A stretch of DNA of 64,000 nucleotides from Pseudomonadota bacterium. GTDB lineage: Bacteria; Pseudomonadota; Gammaproteobacteria; Pseudomonadales; Pseudohongiellaceae. The number at the start of each line of letters is the position of its first letter. Positions within the stretch are counted from its first letter, which is position 1. Position numbers and translations under genes: made by a program. Positions 55,401 to 64,000 of this stretch are shown one piece after another. Below the pieces are notes generated by a model, which was given only the letters and a program-made list of their open reading frames with translations, was not told the origin of the DNA and did not search any database. The DNA is taken from the NCBI GenBank assembly GCA_027623555.1, contig JAQBSZ010000003.1, positions 179,082 through 243,081 on the forward strand. Direction: 5' to 3'.

Positions 55401-55477
55401 GGGCCTATAGCTCAGTTGGTTAGAGCGCCGGACTCATAATCCGTTTGTCCCAGGTTCGAGTCCTGGTGGGCCCACCA
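55401..55477 (+). tRNA. tRNA with CAT anticodon, probably tRNA-Ile2 (elongator Met not excluded)
   Basis: gggcctatagctcagttggttagagcgccggactcataatccgtttgtcccaggttcgagtcctggtgggcccacca: cloverleaf, TTCGAGTCC T-arm, encoded CCA, anticodon loop CTCATAA. Confidence 0.93.
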
Positions 55478-55881: not shown

Positions 55882-58101
55882 TCACTCCAGCATTTCTAAG
55901 TATTCCTCGTATGTCGCCTCGCTGAAGTATACTTTCTCTTCCAAGAGGCTAAATTTCATTACAAAAATATCATCGTCCTTTAAGCCCGCTTGCCTACAAT
56001 AAGGTCCCATTCCATAAATGGCACCATCTTGAGACACTCCGATGGTTCCCACGCTTTCATTGCTTTTTTCAACAATTCCTAAAAACTTTTTATTAATAAG
56101 AAACTGCTTCACTGATGAAGGGGAGCCTACAACCATGTTACTCGTAAACTCTGGGCATTTAACAACAATTCTAATCTGACCTTTATCCCAATCGCATAAC
56201 AACAACCGTTTGGTTCGCAATTTGATTTTGGCTTGATCTGACTGCGACGCCATGTGGGCCGAAACATCTCCCGAGGAAGTTCTTGAACCAATGACAGCAT
56301 GAGTATCGACCCCAATGTGCATTACAACAGGGGAGTATGTCATATAAATGCTAAGCGACATTTCATTAAAGCCACTGGCGATACAGCTCCTCAACAAATC
56401 ACCTCGCGACATCAGACCTGACGGAGAAGCGCGTATTCCATCCACAAGAGCTCGCTCTATGCTTGACAGCTCCAATTTGTAGTCCAACTCCTCATTGGAA
56501 GATACCATAGCGTCTTTCAAACTATACTTCGAAGACTGAGCAAGAAAAGCCTCAATGGCTGACGCACTCGGAGGTACTATCTCCTTCGCTCCTCCACCTC
56601 TTGAAGAATTCCTAAACGTAGCCAACCTACGATATCCATCGCAGACGTACTCGATAGATATTGGGTCACATACACTGAGAACTTTTCGCAGTACATTCTC
56701 TAGTCGGTTACGACTAATCGCGACATCATTGACGGGAATCCACCAAATATATTCATCATCAATTGCTTTCCAACCACCAATATTTTTAACAATATTAAGA
56801 ACCTCAGAAAATTCTAGGGTACTTGAATTTTTGGATACTGCTTTGAAAACCAATCTCAAATCAGCAATGCCGTTCCTACTATAATGCTTTGATAATTGAG
56901 TATGAATCTGATTCACTGCTGCGGAATCGCCTCCTACTATCAGCGTCCCATCTCTCATTCTCGACATTGAAAGATCGTCTTCTGGTGCTCTCAGTATCCT
57001 TGAAAAAAGCAATATCGACTCGACAGATACGCCAATTTTGGATACACCGCTAGAGATGAGTTCGTTCTGAATCGATTCAGCACTCGATCCGAGAGAGTCT
57101 CGAATGATTGTAATTGCCTGCGGCAGTTTCGGCATAAAAATAGGAGCAAAACCGGGGATTGATTTAGCTCCTTTTAGCACCTTCGACTCTAACTGACGAA
57201 TGCGCTCTCTAGTTATCCCTGCTAAATTGCCACATTGCTCCAAAGTCAAAATACCGTCTCGATTTATACCAAAACGATTATGTATAGCATTGAGGTTTTC
57301 TTCTTTTATTCGCTTATAGAAAACCGATATGAAGTCTTCAAACTGTTTCTCAAGTGGGAGCTTCTCTATACGTAAAACCCTCTCATGCGTAGACGCAATG
57401 AGGCTTCTAAGTCTCTTGCGATCCTGCACTGTCCACAATTGATAACCTCCCTCCAAAAACTCAAAAAGATCTTCTAGTGTACTTCCTGCCTGGTAGCTCT
57501 TATCAGGGAGGTTGATGTCGAGTTCAGGGAATCTTGGGTCTCCTCGATGGATCTCATTTAATCCACTAATCTTCTGCATATTTGCTACTAAATTACCAAT
57601 CTCTGCATTTAGATCATTGTCTGCAAGCTCTACATCTCTTGGATTTTCTGCCAACTCTTGACTCGCTGAACAATCAAAATCTTCCATTTTATTAAGAAAT
57701 TCCATGATAGATTTTGCACCCATAGCATAAATCCGGCTCAAATCGAGAAGAGTTATTTCTCGGGCATGCACTTTTCCACCACGGCTATCTAAAAATGAAA
57801 CGATGCAGTTGGAAGTTCTAATGGATAGACCGAGCTCTTTAACAATTTCATATGTAAGAATAAGATTTGAATCAGGGAAGCAAGTAGAATTAGCTTTCGT
57901 CATTTCCGGAGCCCTTCGCGTGATTAAAATATTAATATAATGATTAACTGCTTTAACCTCCGCTACGGACAATGAGTTGAAACTAGAGGGTAAATCTCCG
58001 AGTTTCGAATCCCCACTAAGGTTAAAAATATCCTTAATCCAAACTGGAAGTTTTTGCCCGTAAAAGATATCCCGAATAGCTTGTGATAGATCAATACTCA
58101 T
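55882..58101 (-). CDS. Large protein with RNAP alpha-CTD-like segment and sigma-70 region-4-like HTH
   Basis: 739 aa; LGLSIRTSNCI...LLDLSRIYAMGAKSIMEFLNKM resembles alpha-CTD; RFGINRDGILTLEQCGNLAGITRERIRQLESKVLKGAK resembles sigma region 4.2. Confidence 0.85.
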   Translation of the reverse strand: MSIDLSQAIRDIFYGQKLPVWIKDIFNLSGDSKLGDLPSSFNSLSVAEVKAVNHYINILITRRAPEMTKANSTCFPDSNLILTYEIVKELGLSIRTSNCIVSFLDSRGGKVHAREITLLDLSRIYAMGAKSIMEFLNKMEDFDCSASQELAENPRDVELADNDLNAEIGNLVANMQKISGLNEIHRGDPRFPELDINLPDKSYQAGSTLEDLFEFLEGGYQLWTVQDRKRLRSLIASTHERVLRIEKLPLEKQFEDFISVFYKRIKEENLNAIHNRFGINRDGILTLEQCGNLAGITRERIRQLESKVLKGAKSIPGFAPIFMPKLPQAITIIRDSLGSSAESIQNELISSGVSKIGVSVESILLFSRILRAPEDDLSMSRMRDGTLIVGGDSAAVNQIHTQLSKHYSRNGIADLRLVFKAVSKNSSTLEFSEVLNIVKNIGGWKAIDDEYIWWIPVNDVAISRNRLENVLRKVLSVCDPISIEYVCDGYRRLATFRNSSRGGGAKEIVPPSASAIEAFLAQSSKYSLKDAMVSSNEELDYKLELSSIERALVDGIRASPSGLMSRGDLLRSCIASGFNEMSLSIYMTYSPVVMHIGVDTHAVIGSRTSSGDVSAHMASQSDQAKIKLRTKRLLLCDWDKGQIRIVVKCPEFTSNMVVGSPSSVKQFLINKKFLGIVEKSNESVGTIGVSQDGAIYGMGPYCRQAGLKDDDIFVMKFSLLEEKVYFSEATYEEYLEMLE

Positions 58102-58177
58102 TATTTATTTTTTTTCATTGACAACTAGATTAAAGGCATCATACCATCAGTGTCAACATTTTTAAATATATATACTT
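58102..58177. promoter_or_regulatory. Divergent intergenic region (probable shared promoter/operator)
   Basis: 76-bp AT-rich gap between divergent start codons at 58101 (-) and 58178 (+). Confidence 0.45.
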
Positions 58178-58744
58178 ATGAAAAAGTACGATTTAGTTAC
58201 CGTGGCGATGCGAATACTGGGCGGAGACGATCACGCTTTGGATATTGAAGACATTGCGATGAAATGCGAGGAGTTAGCACCCGGCAGTTTTGCATGGAGA
58301 AAATATAGAAACCAAATTAATTTGGAATTAGTAGGGTTTGCTGTTCGAGATGCAAAAAAACCTAAATATGGCGGGCTTGTCTCCGGATCACACGCAAAAG
58401 GCTGGAGACTAACTGCTCCCGGCGTAGCACAAGCTAACAAATTGCTCGCCGATCTCGGCTCCGACGACATACTCCAGGTTCAGCCCACAAAGCACCGAAA
58501 CTTGGATGAAAACCGAAATAACCGCGAATTAATTCGATTGCGAGAATCCAGCGCCTTCAAAGAATGGCAAACCTCAACCGAGGCTTCGAAACTCGCCCTT
58601 ACCCAACTTCTACGCATAAACGCCTACGCTTCTCAAGACTCTATAGATGTTAAGGTCGCCAGACTAGCTAAGGTAATTGGACTGGACGAAGAAGTTGACA
58701 CCTTCGTCAACTATATCATCTCCCGGAAACAGGACTTACTATGA
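58178..58744 (+). CDS. Hypothetical protein, probably winged-helix N-terminus
   Basis: 188 aa; basic N-terminal segment compatible with wHTH (FAWRKYRNQINLELVGFAVRDAKKPKYGGLVSGSHAKGWRLTAPGVAQA). Confidence 0.75.
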   Translation: MKKYDLVTVAMRILGGDDHALDIEDIAMKCEELAPGSFAWRKYRNQINLELVGFAVRDAKKPKYGGLVSGSHAKGWRLTAPGVAQANKLLADLGSDDILQVQPTKHRNLDENRNNRELIRLRESSAFKEWQTSTEASKLALTQLLRINAYASQDSIDVKVARLAKVIGLDEEVDTFVNYIISRKQDLL

Positions 58745-60907: not shown

Positions 60908-61282
60908 CTAGTATTGCTGTTTTTCCATAATCACGCCTCTGACACCACCACGCGGATTCTCGGTGTCGCCCTTCCTCCTCGGAATCAAGTGTATGTGGCA
61001 ATGAAATATAGTCTGGCCCGCATCCTCACCACAATTCATACCAATGTTGAATCCAGTAACATCAGCATCTTCAGCCTGAATTAGTTCTTTATGCTTCTTC
61101 AATAACCCTTGAAGGTCTTCCAACTCTGCATCATTGAGACCAAAGTAGTCCGTCACATGTCGCTTGGGGATTACTAACGCATGTAATGGCGTAACAGGAA
61201 ACCCATCCCGGATAACGAAGAAAAGTTCAGATTCATCCACGATACGCTCGCTCTCTATACTACAAAATGCACATTTACTCAT
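60908..61282 (-). CDS. HIT family protein
   Basis: Start at MSKCAFC (ATGA overlap with upstream HNH stop); HIT motif TIFHCHIHLIPRRKGD. Confidence 0.9.
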   Translation of the reverse strand: MSKCAFCSIESERIVDESELFFVIRDGFPVTPLHALVIPKRHVTDYFGLNDAELEDLQGLLKKHKELIQAEDADVTGFNIGMNCGEDAGQTIFHCHIHLIPRRKGDTENPRGGVRGVIMEKQQY

Positions 61283-62295
61283 TCTCTTAACTCTTTTCTC
61301 AGACGGGGCTTCCACTTTTCCTTACTTGGAATCGCCTCAACCGCTCCGTTATACATCGACTGCAAGAAAGCCTTTCTATCAGACTCTGTTCTGCCGGTCT
61401 GGTTGACTATCGTCTCTCTCAGAGGGTGGTGGCTCTCCACATAATAGTTATTTCTATCATTCAAGGCATAAAGAAAATCTAGATGCGCAATTCTTTCAAA
61501 TTTACCACCTTCACCTCTGTTACACTCTTTGCACGCAAGCACCAGGTTCCACACTTGATCAACATTCATGATACCCGAGGACTTCAGCTTATGCGGAAAG
61601 AAATGATCTACATCGCAAGAGTTCTCATACCCCTGTTCGATAAGTATGTCTTTTGAACAGTAGAAGCAACTACCTTTCTGATATCCGTTGAGCGCATCTC
61701 TTGAAGACGAAATACTGATTCTTCTAGCTTCAGGGTTATGCACAAACAGTTCATTACTTTCAATATCTGCGTTCACTTGGATCAGGTTTGGACTAATCCC
61801 CAACGATATAGCTGTCTCCCAAAGCCGCCATCTCGACTCAACTTCATATCCAAAATTTGAAGACTGCGAAGACTTCAATAGCTGATAAAAATTGTCTGTA
61901 AGGATTATGCCTTTCTCGTCCTTTCGCTTGTCCTCGAAGAATCTTGGCACCTCGTTTCCAGACACTTTGTGAAAGGCGTCAATGACATTCACAAATCCCA
62001 ATTTAATAGCTTGAGCTCTCAATTCGTCTTGTGCGATTTGCTCAGAATTATACTGGCGACAGTAATCTAGGAACTTGCTGGACTTCGAGGTTACCTGTTT
62101 ATCGTTATGTTCCAGGTGTTGAGCAACATTAAGCGCAAAAGGTAACGCAAGATCTTCCATTCTTATTAGCGTGCTATCTGCTTGTACCTCCAGAAGGGTT
62201 TTGGCAAGAGCAAATTTATAGGAGGCGACATTATTTCCGAGCAAAACAATTGCCCGCCAATAGGTGCTTAACGAAGGATCCTTGTCAATAAACAT
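61279..62295 (-). CDS. HNH endonuclease domain protein
   Basis: 338 aa; CFYCSKDILIEQGYENSCDVDHFFPHKLKSSGIMNVDQVWNLVLACKECNRGEGGK. Confidence 0.9.
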   Translation of the reverse strand: MFIDKDPSLSTYWRAIVLLGNNVASYKFALAKTLLEVQADSTLIRMEDLALPFALNVAQHLEHNDKQVTSKSSKFLDYCRQYNSEQIAQDELRAQAIKLGFVNVIDAFHKVSGNEVPRFFEDKRKDEKGIILTDNFYQLLKSSQSSNFGYEVESRWRLWETAISLGISPNLIQVNADIESNELFVHNPEARRISISSSRDALNGYQKGSCFYCSKDILIEQGYENSCDVDHFFPHKLKSSGIMNVDQVWNLVLACKECNRGEGGKFERIAHLDFLYALNDRNNYYVESHHPLRETIVNQTGRTESDRKAFLQSMYNGAVEAIPSKEKWKPRLRKELRE

Positions 62296-62357
62296 CTAAT
62301 CGTCGCTCGCTGGAATTCCGATCAGTTTCAATGAATCTACGCATTATCCTCCATCTA

Positions 62358-62651
62358 TCAACACGGTACTGACAACTTAACTTCCACTACGACCAGCTTT
62401 CCGTGCTGCGTTATATAGAGTATATCCAATGGTCCGGCAGGGGTATTCAGCTCACAACACACAGGCAACATACCCGAGAATATATTGTCGATATCCTCGA
62501 TTGGTATGGATGACGGGTTATTGAAAAGGAAATTCTGCAACCACTTCTCGTCATAAAAGAAATCTGAATTAGATTGCAGACCGATTTTCTCTAAAGGCCT
62601 AGGTATGCCATCAGATATGAGAACAGGGGAAGGAAATGCGGATTTACTCAT
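62358..62651 (-). pseudogene. Truncated PD-(D/E)XK-type nuclease ORF
   Basis: 97-aa ORF ending ...AGPLDILYITQHGKLVVVEVKLSVPC; the catalytic D...ExK core is reached, then stops in the 23-bp repeat. Confidence 0.65.
62364..62386. repeat. 23-bp direct repeat, copy 2 (cggtactgacaacttaacttcca)
   Basis: Exact match to 60675-60697, same orientation. Confidence 0.95.
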
Positions 62652-62697
62652 AAGTCACCAATTTAGTATTCTACATCTATCGATAGTCTAGCTGGAT

Positions 62698-63099
62698 CTA
62701 TGAAGCCATCTTCTGTGAATCGGGCATAACCACAACCTCAATGTCCTGAGCGGCACACAGTTCAGACATCAGCTCGTCATTCTTGCTGCATATCGCCACC
62801 GTTCTGATTGAGAGCGGGTTCAGCTTCATCAAAAGCTCTCTCGAGAAGAACGCTTGACCCATCAAGTACATCCCCAACCGACTCCCTTTTGTCTGAATAC
62901 AGATAACGTCTCTGCCGGAGATATCAAAACTTCCTCCGCTTCGAACAGTAGTTTCTTCACCGAGAACGATTAAACCATCTATCAAGCGCCTAGCAACATT
63001 CCCGCCAGAGTTTGCAGATACAGCCTGAAATTCTTCTATGAGGAGACCTCCGACTTTTTCCCAATAAGCTCTGGTTCTCCATGACTCATGCTTACTCAT
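62698..63099 (-). CDS. Small restriction-endonuclease-like (PD-(D/E)XK-like) protein
   Basis: 133 aa; RRLIDGLIVLGEE...GRDVICIQTKGSRLGMYLMGQAFFSRELL compatible with D...QxK nuclease core. Confidence 0.6.
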   Translation of the reverse strand: MSKHESWRTRAYWEKVGGLLIEEFQAVSANSGGNVARRLIDGLIVLGEETTVRSGGSFDISGRDVICIQTKGSRLGMYLMGQAFFSRELLMKLNPLSIRTVAICSKNDELMSELCAAQDIEVVVMPDSQKMAS

Positions 63100-63163
63100 A
63101 ATACTTACCCTGCGACTTTAGAGCCTTGAACCTTGCCCAAAACATCTCCTTAATTCACTCGCC

Positions 63164-64000
63164 TCAAAAACTCTCTGTATCAGTAGGACTAAATTTCATC
63201 TTGAGAGCAGGAAAAGCATCAATCATAGACTGAACAACTTTAGGAACTCCTCTCCCCCATTGGTTCGAAAGCACATATGTCTTCCCATCAATAAAAAACA
63301 TCTCTCCTTCTTTGCAAAAATATCTTTTGGTTCGAGGTCGCTCCGCATGGGGATCATCTTTACAAAGCTCGATAGACAGTGCCGTCTCATCTAACTCTCC
63401 ATCGAAGATTTTAAACATTCTGTTCTTTCTACCTGGCACAAATTCAGCCACTGCCTCTGGGGCAATTCCACTTTCAATGGCTGCTTTCACTGTCCTATAC
63501 ATTAAATGCCGCTTTGGTAGGTTTCTATGAACCTCTTGCCCAATAGCAAGGTCAAATCTAGTGGTATCTATATTTGATGATCGTACCTTTTTTACTTCTT
63601 GCTTTTTTTCATTTAGCTGAACTTGATATTGCTCAGTCTCTGGCAGAGGTATGACTGTCTGCACATCCAGCAGAGTTTTATTACCATCTTGATAAGGCCT
63701 AATCCTGATACATCTTATATCTACACTTTTTTCATTCAACCACAGTACTGCGCTTGTGACCTCCTTCGAAAACTCAGCAGCAGCCAGAATAATTCGAACA
63801 TCATTCCCGAAACTTTCTTCGTCGGGCTCTTCTAGCTCTAAAAATTCTAAAAGATTTTCCTCAGCATTCGCTTCAGTACCTATGCTCTTTAAATACCCTT
63901 CGTATATATCAACAACTTTACTGAAAGTAAGATTTGCGATCATTGCAGCGTATCTAATAGCCTGTAACTCCATATGACCGCCATCTTCAGACCGCTTCAA
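63164..64000 (-). CDS. C-terminal part of a PD-(D/E)XK-type DUF91-like protein (5' end outside window)
   Basis: Open to window edge; begins LKRSEDGGHMELQAIRYAAMIANLTFSKVVDIYEGYL, which follows the catalytic E-x-K in related proteins. Confidence 0.75.
   Translation of the reverse strand: MKRSEDGGHMELQAIRYAAMIANLTFSKVVDIYEGYLKSIGTEANAEENLLEFLELEEPDEESFGNDVRIILAAAEFSKEVTSAVLWLNEKSVDIRCIRIRPYQDGNKTLLDVQTVIPLPETEQYQVQLNEKKQEVKKVRSSNIDTTRFDLAIGQEVHRNLPKRHLMYRTVKAAIESGIAPEAVAEFVPGRKNRMFKIFDGELDETALSIELCKDDPHAERPRTKRYFCKEGEMFFIDGKTYVLSNQWGRGVPKVVQSMIDAFPALKMKFSPTDTESF

Follow-up and report, generated by a model that had tools for sequence, protein, structure and literature searches.

A rare protein joining RNA polymerase alpha-CTD-like and sigma region-4-like domains is encoded in a conserved three-gene module with a GHKL ATPase

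Introduction

What is the role of a protein that carries, in one chain of 739 residues, segments resembling two DNA-binding parts of RNA polymerase (RNAP)? The gene that raises this question lies in a stretch of DNA of 64,000 nt, which we analyzed as a whole (the window; positions are counted from its first letter). A preliminary description of the locus had proposed that the C-terminal domain of the alpha subunit (alpha-CTD) and region 4 of sigma-70 (sigma4) are both represented in the protein, that it is unlikely to be a normal sigma factor, and that it acts as an RNAP-mimicking regulator or a DNA-binding scaffold. We asked whether the two domains are real, which genes accompany them, and what these genes suggest about function.

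P739 carries two RNAP-type DNA-binding domains

The protein, hereafter P739, and its domains lie as follows.

55882-58101, minus strand: P739, 739 aa, with alpha-CTD-like, sigma4-like and further domains; open reading frame as first described; full-length relatives at loci L073, L075 and L076
57685-57849, minus strand: alpha-CTD-like domain, residues 85-139 (Pfam score 12.4 bits here and 27.3 in L073; invariant columns; fold match of the L073 model to 3gfk_B)
57163-57351, minus strand: sigma-70 region-4-like helix-turn-helix (HTH), residues 251-313 (profile matches; invariant columns; fold matches of the L073 model)
55885-56211, minus strand: C-terminal beta-rich domain, residues ~631-739, tentatively a B3-like DNA-binding barrel (AF2 pLDDT ~80-88; Foldseek)

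The sigma4-like segment of P739 reaches significance without help from relatives. Residues 253-311 matched the NCBIfam model RpoD_Cterm (3.6e-9), residues 252-311 matched sigmaA region 4 in the PDB (2.2e-6), and residues 244-310 matched the MzaA model (2.6e-10, 39.8 bits) over its sigma4 part only. Against Pfam Sigma70_r4, P739 scored 21.9 bits (1.3e-4), just below the curated cut-off of 24.1, and L073 scored 31.1 bits, above it. The recognition helix TRERIRQ, at residues 297-303 of P739, is invariant among the four complete family members, and the family as a whole has a region 4 HTH with the residues that contact the -35 element. This HTH with its TRERIRQ helix is the feature P739 shares with RpoD and RpoS. 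Unlike them, it has no match to sigma regions 1-3, and its region 4 sits in the middle of the protein; in the relatives, too, matches to sigma models are confined to region 4 and the part immediately upstream. Since searches of Pfam, NCBIfam and the PDB found no match to sigma region 2, P739 is, as far as its sequence indicates, not a sigma factor, in agreement with the preliminary description.

Evidence for the alpha-CTD-like domain is strongest in a relative. Residues 85-139 of P739 scored 12.4 bits (E=0.13) against Pfam PF03118 (RNA_pol_A_CTD), which is sub-threshold (cut-off 23.8), as are the scores of L075 (the same locus as L069) and L076 at the aligned position (12.7 bits each). L073 reached 27.3 bits (E=3e-6) at the aligned position, above the cut-off, and matched TIGR02027 rpoA at 1e-4. 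R95, N98, G128 and S131 of P739 correspond to R265, N268, G296 and S299 of alpha and are the same in all four complete proteins. We take these residues and those of TRERIRQ to be the equivalents of those with which E. coli RNAP contacts UP-element and -35 DNA.

The full-length AF2 model of P739 was of moderate quality (pLDDT 66.7, pTM 0.31), with the sigma4 part poorly modeled at low confidence; both RNAP-type folds were recovered from the model of its relative L073, not from P739 itself. The model of L073 residues 1-340 had block-mean pLDDT values of 80-94 over residues 21-160. At the alpha-CTD position it contains helices 110-119, 125-129, 133-138 and 144-174, and Foldseek aligned it with the Bacillus subtilis alpha-CTD (3gfk_B) at TMt 0.67 and probability 0.95. 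At the sigma4 position it contains helices 256-268, 273-282, 292-299 and 303-316, with TMt 0.65-0.69 to sigmaA region-4 structures (6onu, 6ono and 4g8x). The Foldseek E-values for both folds were not significant, which is usual for domains of ~65 residues. The preliminary description would have failed had structure prediction yielded neither fold; the L073 model yields both.

Could the alpha-CTD-like part be a chance resemblance, or some other helix-hairpin-helix domain, with only the sigma4 domain real? The sub-threshold scores of P739, L075 and L076 would fit this explanation, as would the poor scores of the family against a narrow profile built from alpha-CTDs of the same order. Yet L073 passes the Pfam cut-off at the aligned position, the equivalents of R265, N268, G296 and S299 do not vary, and the L073 model matches an alpha-CTD structure; we consider a chance resemblance highly improbable. 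In L073 the alpha-CTD-like domain has both a significant profile match and the fold, P739 itself remaining sub-threshold, and both RNAP-type domains are real at the family level. The proposed fusion is thus borne out by profiles in P739 and L073, by the L073 folds and by the invariant residues.

A third DNA-binding domain may lie at the C terminus, where the top PDB matches of the beta-rich domain in Foldseek were plant B3 DNA-binding domains (probability up to 0.97, TMt up to 0.61), with E-values of 0.19 and above that are not significant. We tentatively assign it as a B3-like barrel on the basis of the predicted model. Some restriction enzymes, BfiI and EcoRII among them, use B3-like barrels to recognize DNA.

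P739 is encoded divergently from two conserved partner genes

The preliminary description, which did not mention the possible B3-like barrel, also left out the conserved partner genes and the island in which they lie. Next to P739 are the following.

58102-58177: divergent intergenic region, 76 bp, holding two TTGACA hexamers that face each other (58118-58123, plus strand; 58156-58151, minus strand)
58178-58744, plus strand: 188-aa partner of no known family, 35-36% identical to the proteins at the same place in L073, L075 and L076
58741-60405, plus strand: 554-aa GHKL ATPase partner of the MutL/Hsp90 type (HATPase_c_3, 5.4e-16), overlapping the stop of the 188-aa gene

Wherever the flanks are intact (the window, L073, L075 and L076), the same two genes lie next to the P739 gene and point away from it; in the window these two overlap (58741/58744). 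The small partner measures ~190-210 aa across loci (188 in the window); it had no match in Pfam, NCBIfam, PADLOC or PHROG and no relatives in the PDB. The GHKL ATPase of the window is 45-49% identical to its counterparts, that of L073 being present on its contig as the N-terminal half only. The motifs WEYVxNS, DNGRGM and FGTGKSAAFG (N, G1 and G2) are kept across loci; an intact GHKL ATPase, a feature of GHKL defense systems, is conserved with the P739 gene. Its best named match was BbrUII/HgiDII (NF050001; 2e-10 for the window, 1.7e-13 for L076), far under the curated cut-off of 550 bits, and it more remotely matched MzaB, TopoVI-B and MutL. No nuclease, methyltransferase or helicase is common to the four loci, a point against the explanation given below. 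The three-gene module is small and testable, and matches no entry of PADLOC 2.0.0 or NCBIfam release 20.

The layout of the module brings up the main rival to the explanation we propose below. P739 could be a dedicated transcription regulator of the divergent 188-aa/GHKL operon, a repressor or activator bound to the 76 bp between the genes, with the partners alone doing the work. Divergent transcription, seen at four of four loci, is typical of such regulators; P739 has DNA-binding domains throughout, and the intergenic region of the window holds two consensus TTGACA hexamers. However, the hexamer pair is not conserved in L073, L075 and L076, the gap is only 41-48 bp in L075 and L076, and no conserved operator was found in the intergenic region across loci. 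Moreover, 739 residues with several DNA-binding domains are far above the usual size of a local regulator. We regard this explanation as rather unlikely.

The P739 family is rare and patchily distributed

P739 is without close relatives. Among 369 genomes of its class, a profile search recovered two fragments and one full-length relative, of 735 aa and 26% identity. A second scan covered 85,462 species with one genome each; it was seeded with patterns of short conserved peptides, may miss members, and recovered five loci.

L073 (SZUA-140): full-length relative
L075 (OFTM98): full-length relative
L076 (Woeseiaceae): full-length relative
L074: fragment at a contig start
L077:8782-9993 (Ectothiorhodospiraceae metagenome-assembled genome, MAG): broken family copy with an interrupted frame

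Complete proteins thus number four, the three relatives all coming from gammaproteobacterial MAGs. With a profile of the P739 C terminus, 399 genomes of the phylum gave the window's own gene only. Virus relatives were sought in a collection of phage records and by a BFVD fold search, and the fold search gave nothing convincing. The family is rare and its distribution very patchy, and a literature search found no description of an alpha-CTD-like and sigma4-like fusion. IS3-like transposase genes lie a few kb from the broken copy at L077:8782-9993.

What more distant proteins have in common with P739 is limited to the sigma4-plus-middle module, which is therefore the common core; the P739 subfamily is distinguished by its alpha-CTD-like N terminus. 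Relatives of ~350 aa on Pseudomonas megaplasmids of ~0.9-1.2 Mb (L024:7067-8017, L036:1546-2625, L037:1528-2601 and L038:1501-2619) have a sigma4-like HTH and the middle module without the alpha-CTD part. Those that are annotated directly follow dnaE, with dnaG a few genes further on in two cases, and they may be replication-linked regulators. A Rhodoferax plasmid encodes an 852-aa protein annotated as an XRE regulator (L023:5858-8416), in which N-terminal HTH repeats precede the sigma4-plus-middle module.

The module lies in a low-GC island beside a tRNA gene

The surroundings of the module in the window contain two further features.

55401-55477, plus strand: tRNA-Met, the likely insertion point, between rpoD and the low-GC island
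61279-64000 and L022:5440-8141, minus strand: nuclease-like island genes (HNH, NucS_C-like and GmrSD_C-type)

The module starts ~400 bp past the tRNA-Met gene, downstream of rpoD, at the point where GC content falls from ~54% to ~41-47%, and the low-GC stretch runs to the contig end. Neither the window nor the 9 kb that lead to the contig end yielded an att duplicate of the tRNA-Met end. The island encodes a HIT protein, an HNH protein (phrog_338), two NucS_C-like proteins and, near the contig end, a GmrSD_C-type HNH protein, and the stretch of nuclease-like genes appears, from its predicted products, nuclease-rich and defense-like. Near the L076 module, two genes look recombinase-like by eye and a third is weakly PDDEXK_3-like.

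P739 resembles known defense systems but belongs to none of those compared

In PglW of type-2 BREX, three winged helices come after an alpha-CTD-like domain (PMC12839542). P739 shares with PglW the theme of a large protein with an alpha-CTD-like helical domain and then HTH modules. It differs in lacking, in Pfam and PADLOC scans, the NERD nuclease and Ser/Thr/Tyr kinase domains, and in its partner genes, which encode a GHKL ATPase plus a small protein and are not BREX genes. Homology between P739 and the C-terminal half of PglW was considered and none was detected in a comparison of a single sequence with a shallow profile. In a genome of the same order (L103), the alpha-CTD-like domain of PglW passes the PF03118 cut-off with 32 bits, an independent case in a defense protein.

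A second parallel is MZA, in which a sigma region 4 protein (MzaA) is encoded with a GHKL ATPase (MzaB); the P739 family has weak matches to both. The MzaA model, whose curated cut-off is 800 bits, aligned with P739 over region 4 only, at the 39.8 bits given above, and the GHKL partner reached 22.7 bits against a cut-off of 850 for MzaB. The MzaA model aligns with a complete RpoD over 230-716, whereas P739 matches region 4 only, and we therefore rejected an identification of P739 as MzaA. Further differences are the alpha-CTD-like domain of P739, its long C-terminal part and the absence of other recognizable MZA genes from its neighborhood. The P739 system resembles PglW and MZA and is a member of neither.

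The partner ATPase carries the GHKL motifs found in MORC/paraMORC proteins and in BbrUII/HgiDII; it differs in that no helicase, methyltransferase or fused nuclease is common to its loci. Prokaryotic MORC/paraMORC GHKLs occur mostly in restriction systems (PMC2292703), and the text of that paper describes no sigma or alpha-CTD protein, the word sigma being absent from it.

P739 may be the DNA-reading subunit of a GHKL-powered system

From the architecture of P739 and its conserved module we infer a function, to which we give an even chance: P739 would read DNA, as specificity or sensor subunit, for a mobile system of three genes that also comprises the ~190-210-aa partner and the GHKL ATPase, the system most likely serving defense against phages or plasmids. 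Four results speak for this proposal: both domains exceed the Pfam curated cut-offs in L073, both folds are recovered from its model, the DNA-contact residues are invariant, and the genes and their layout recur in the window, L073, L075 and L076. The sub-threshold alpha-CTD match of P739 itself, the low confidence of its own model around sigma4 and the non-significant B3 E-value count against it. An anti-phage or anti-plasmid role is the most likely one to judge from the company of the genes and the type of partner: the ATPase has intact motifs and its nearest named relatives (BbrUII/HgiDII and MzaB) belong to restriction or defense, the island beside tRNA-Met carries several nuclease-like genes, the distribution is very patchy, and PglW and the MORC-like GHKLs of restriction systems provide precedents.

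In such a system, P739 would engage DNA through several domains simultaneously, its target possibly being promoter-like DNA, AT-rich and with a -35-like element. It would then load or gate the GHKL ATPase, which would close on DNA in an ATP-dependent manner, as MutL and MORC proteins do, so that incoming DNA might be silenced or its destruction helped.

In the RNAP holoenzyme, alpha-CTD and sigma4 bind adjacent UP and -35 DNA. This fact, together with the DNA-contact residues kept in both RNAP-derived domains, speaks for P739 as a true RNAP mimic, one that binds RNAP or competes at promoters and so shuts off transcription of host or invader. But the RNAP-like features of P739 are DNA-contact residues only, alpha-CTD-like domains also occur in the defense protein PglW, and mimicry leaves the ATPase partner unexplained; we think it improbable. 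The scaffold half of the preliminary interpretation comes close to our preferred reading, and the mimicry half holds only for the kept DNA-contact residues.

Collectively, these data suggest a rare, undescribed three-gene DNA-targeting system, probably anti-phage, rather than a sigma factor. A stronger version, a new GHKL-powered defense system whose specificity subunit combines the UP-element and -35 readers of RNAP and finds invaders by their promoters, which they need in any case, seems to us a doubtful extension. If the DNA-reading role is correct, two such modules of the transcription machinery have been joined in a non-sigma protein that is coupled to an ATPase of the MutL/MORC type, an arrangement that would point to the sensing of foreign DNA by promoter features.

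Two other GHKL genes were observed. A Rhizobium leguminosarum plasmid encodes a GHKL ATPase (L035:8941-11619) that is 26% identical over 381 aa; the gene after it encodes 360 aa and belongs to no known family, and no sigma4 gene was noticed adjacent. By eye the 360-aa product looked like a relative, and a homology test detected no similarity. The genome of the window itself holds a second, distant GHKL open reading frame (L034, G000:C39:39466-39717; E=2.1e-4) within a 667-aa open frame.
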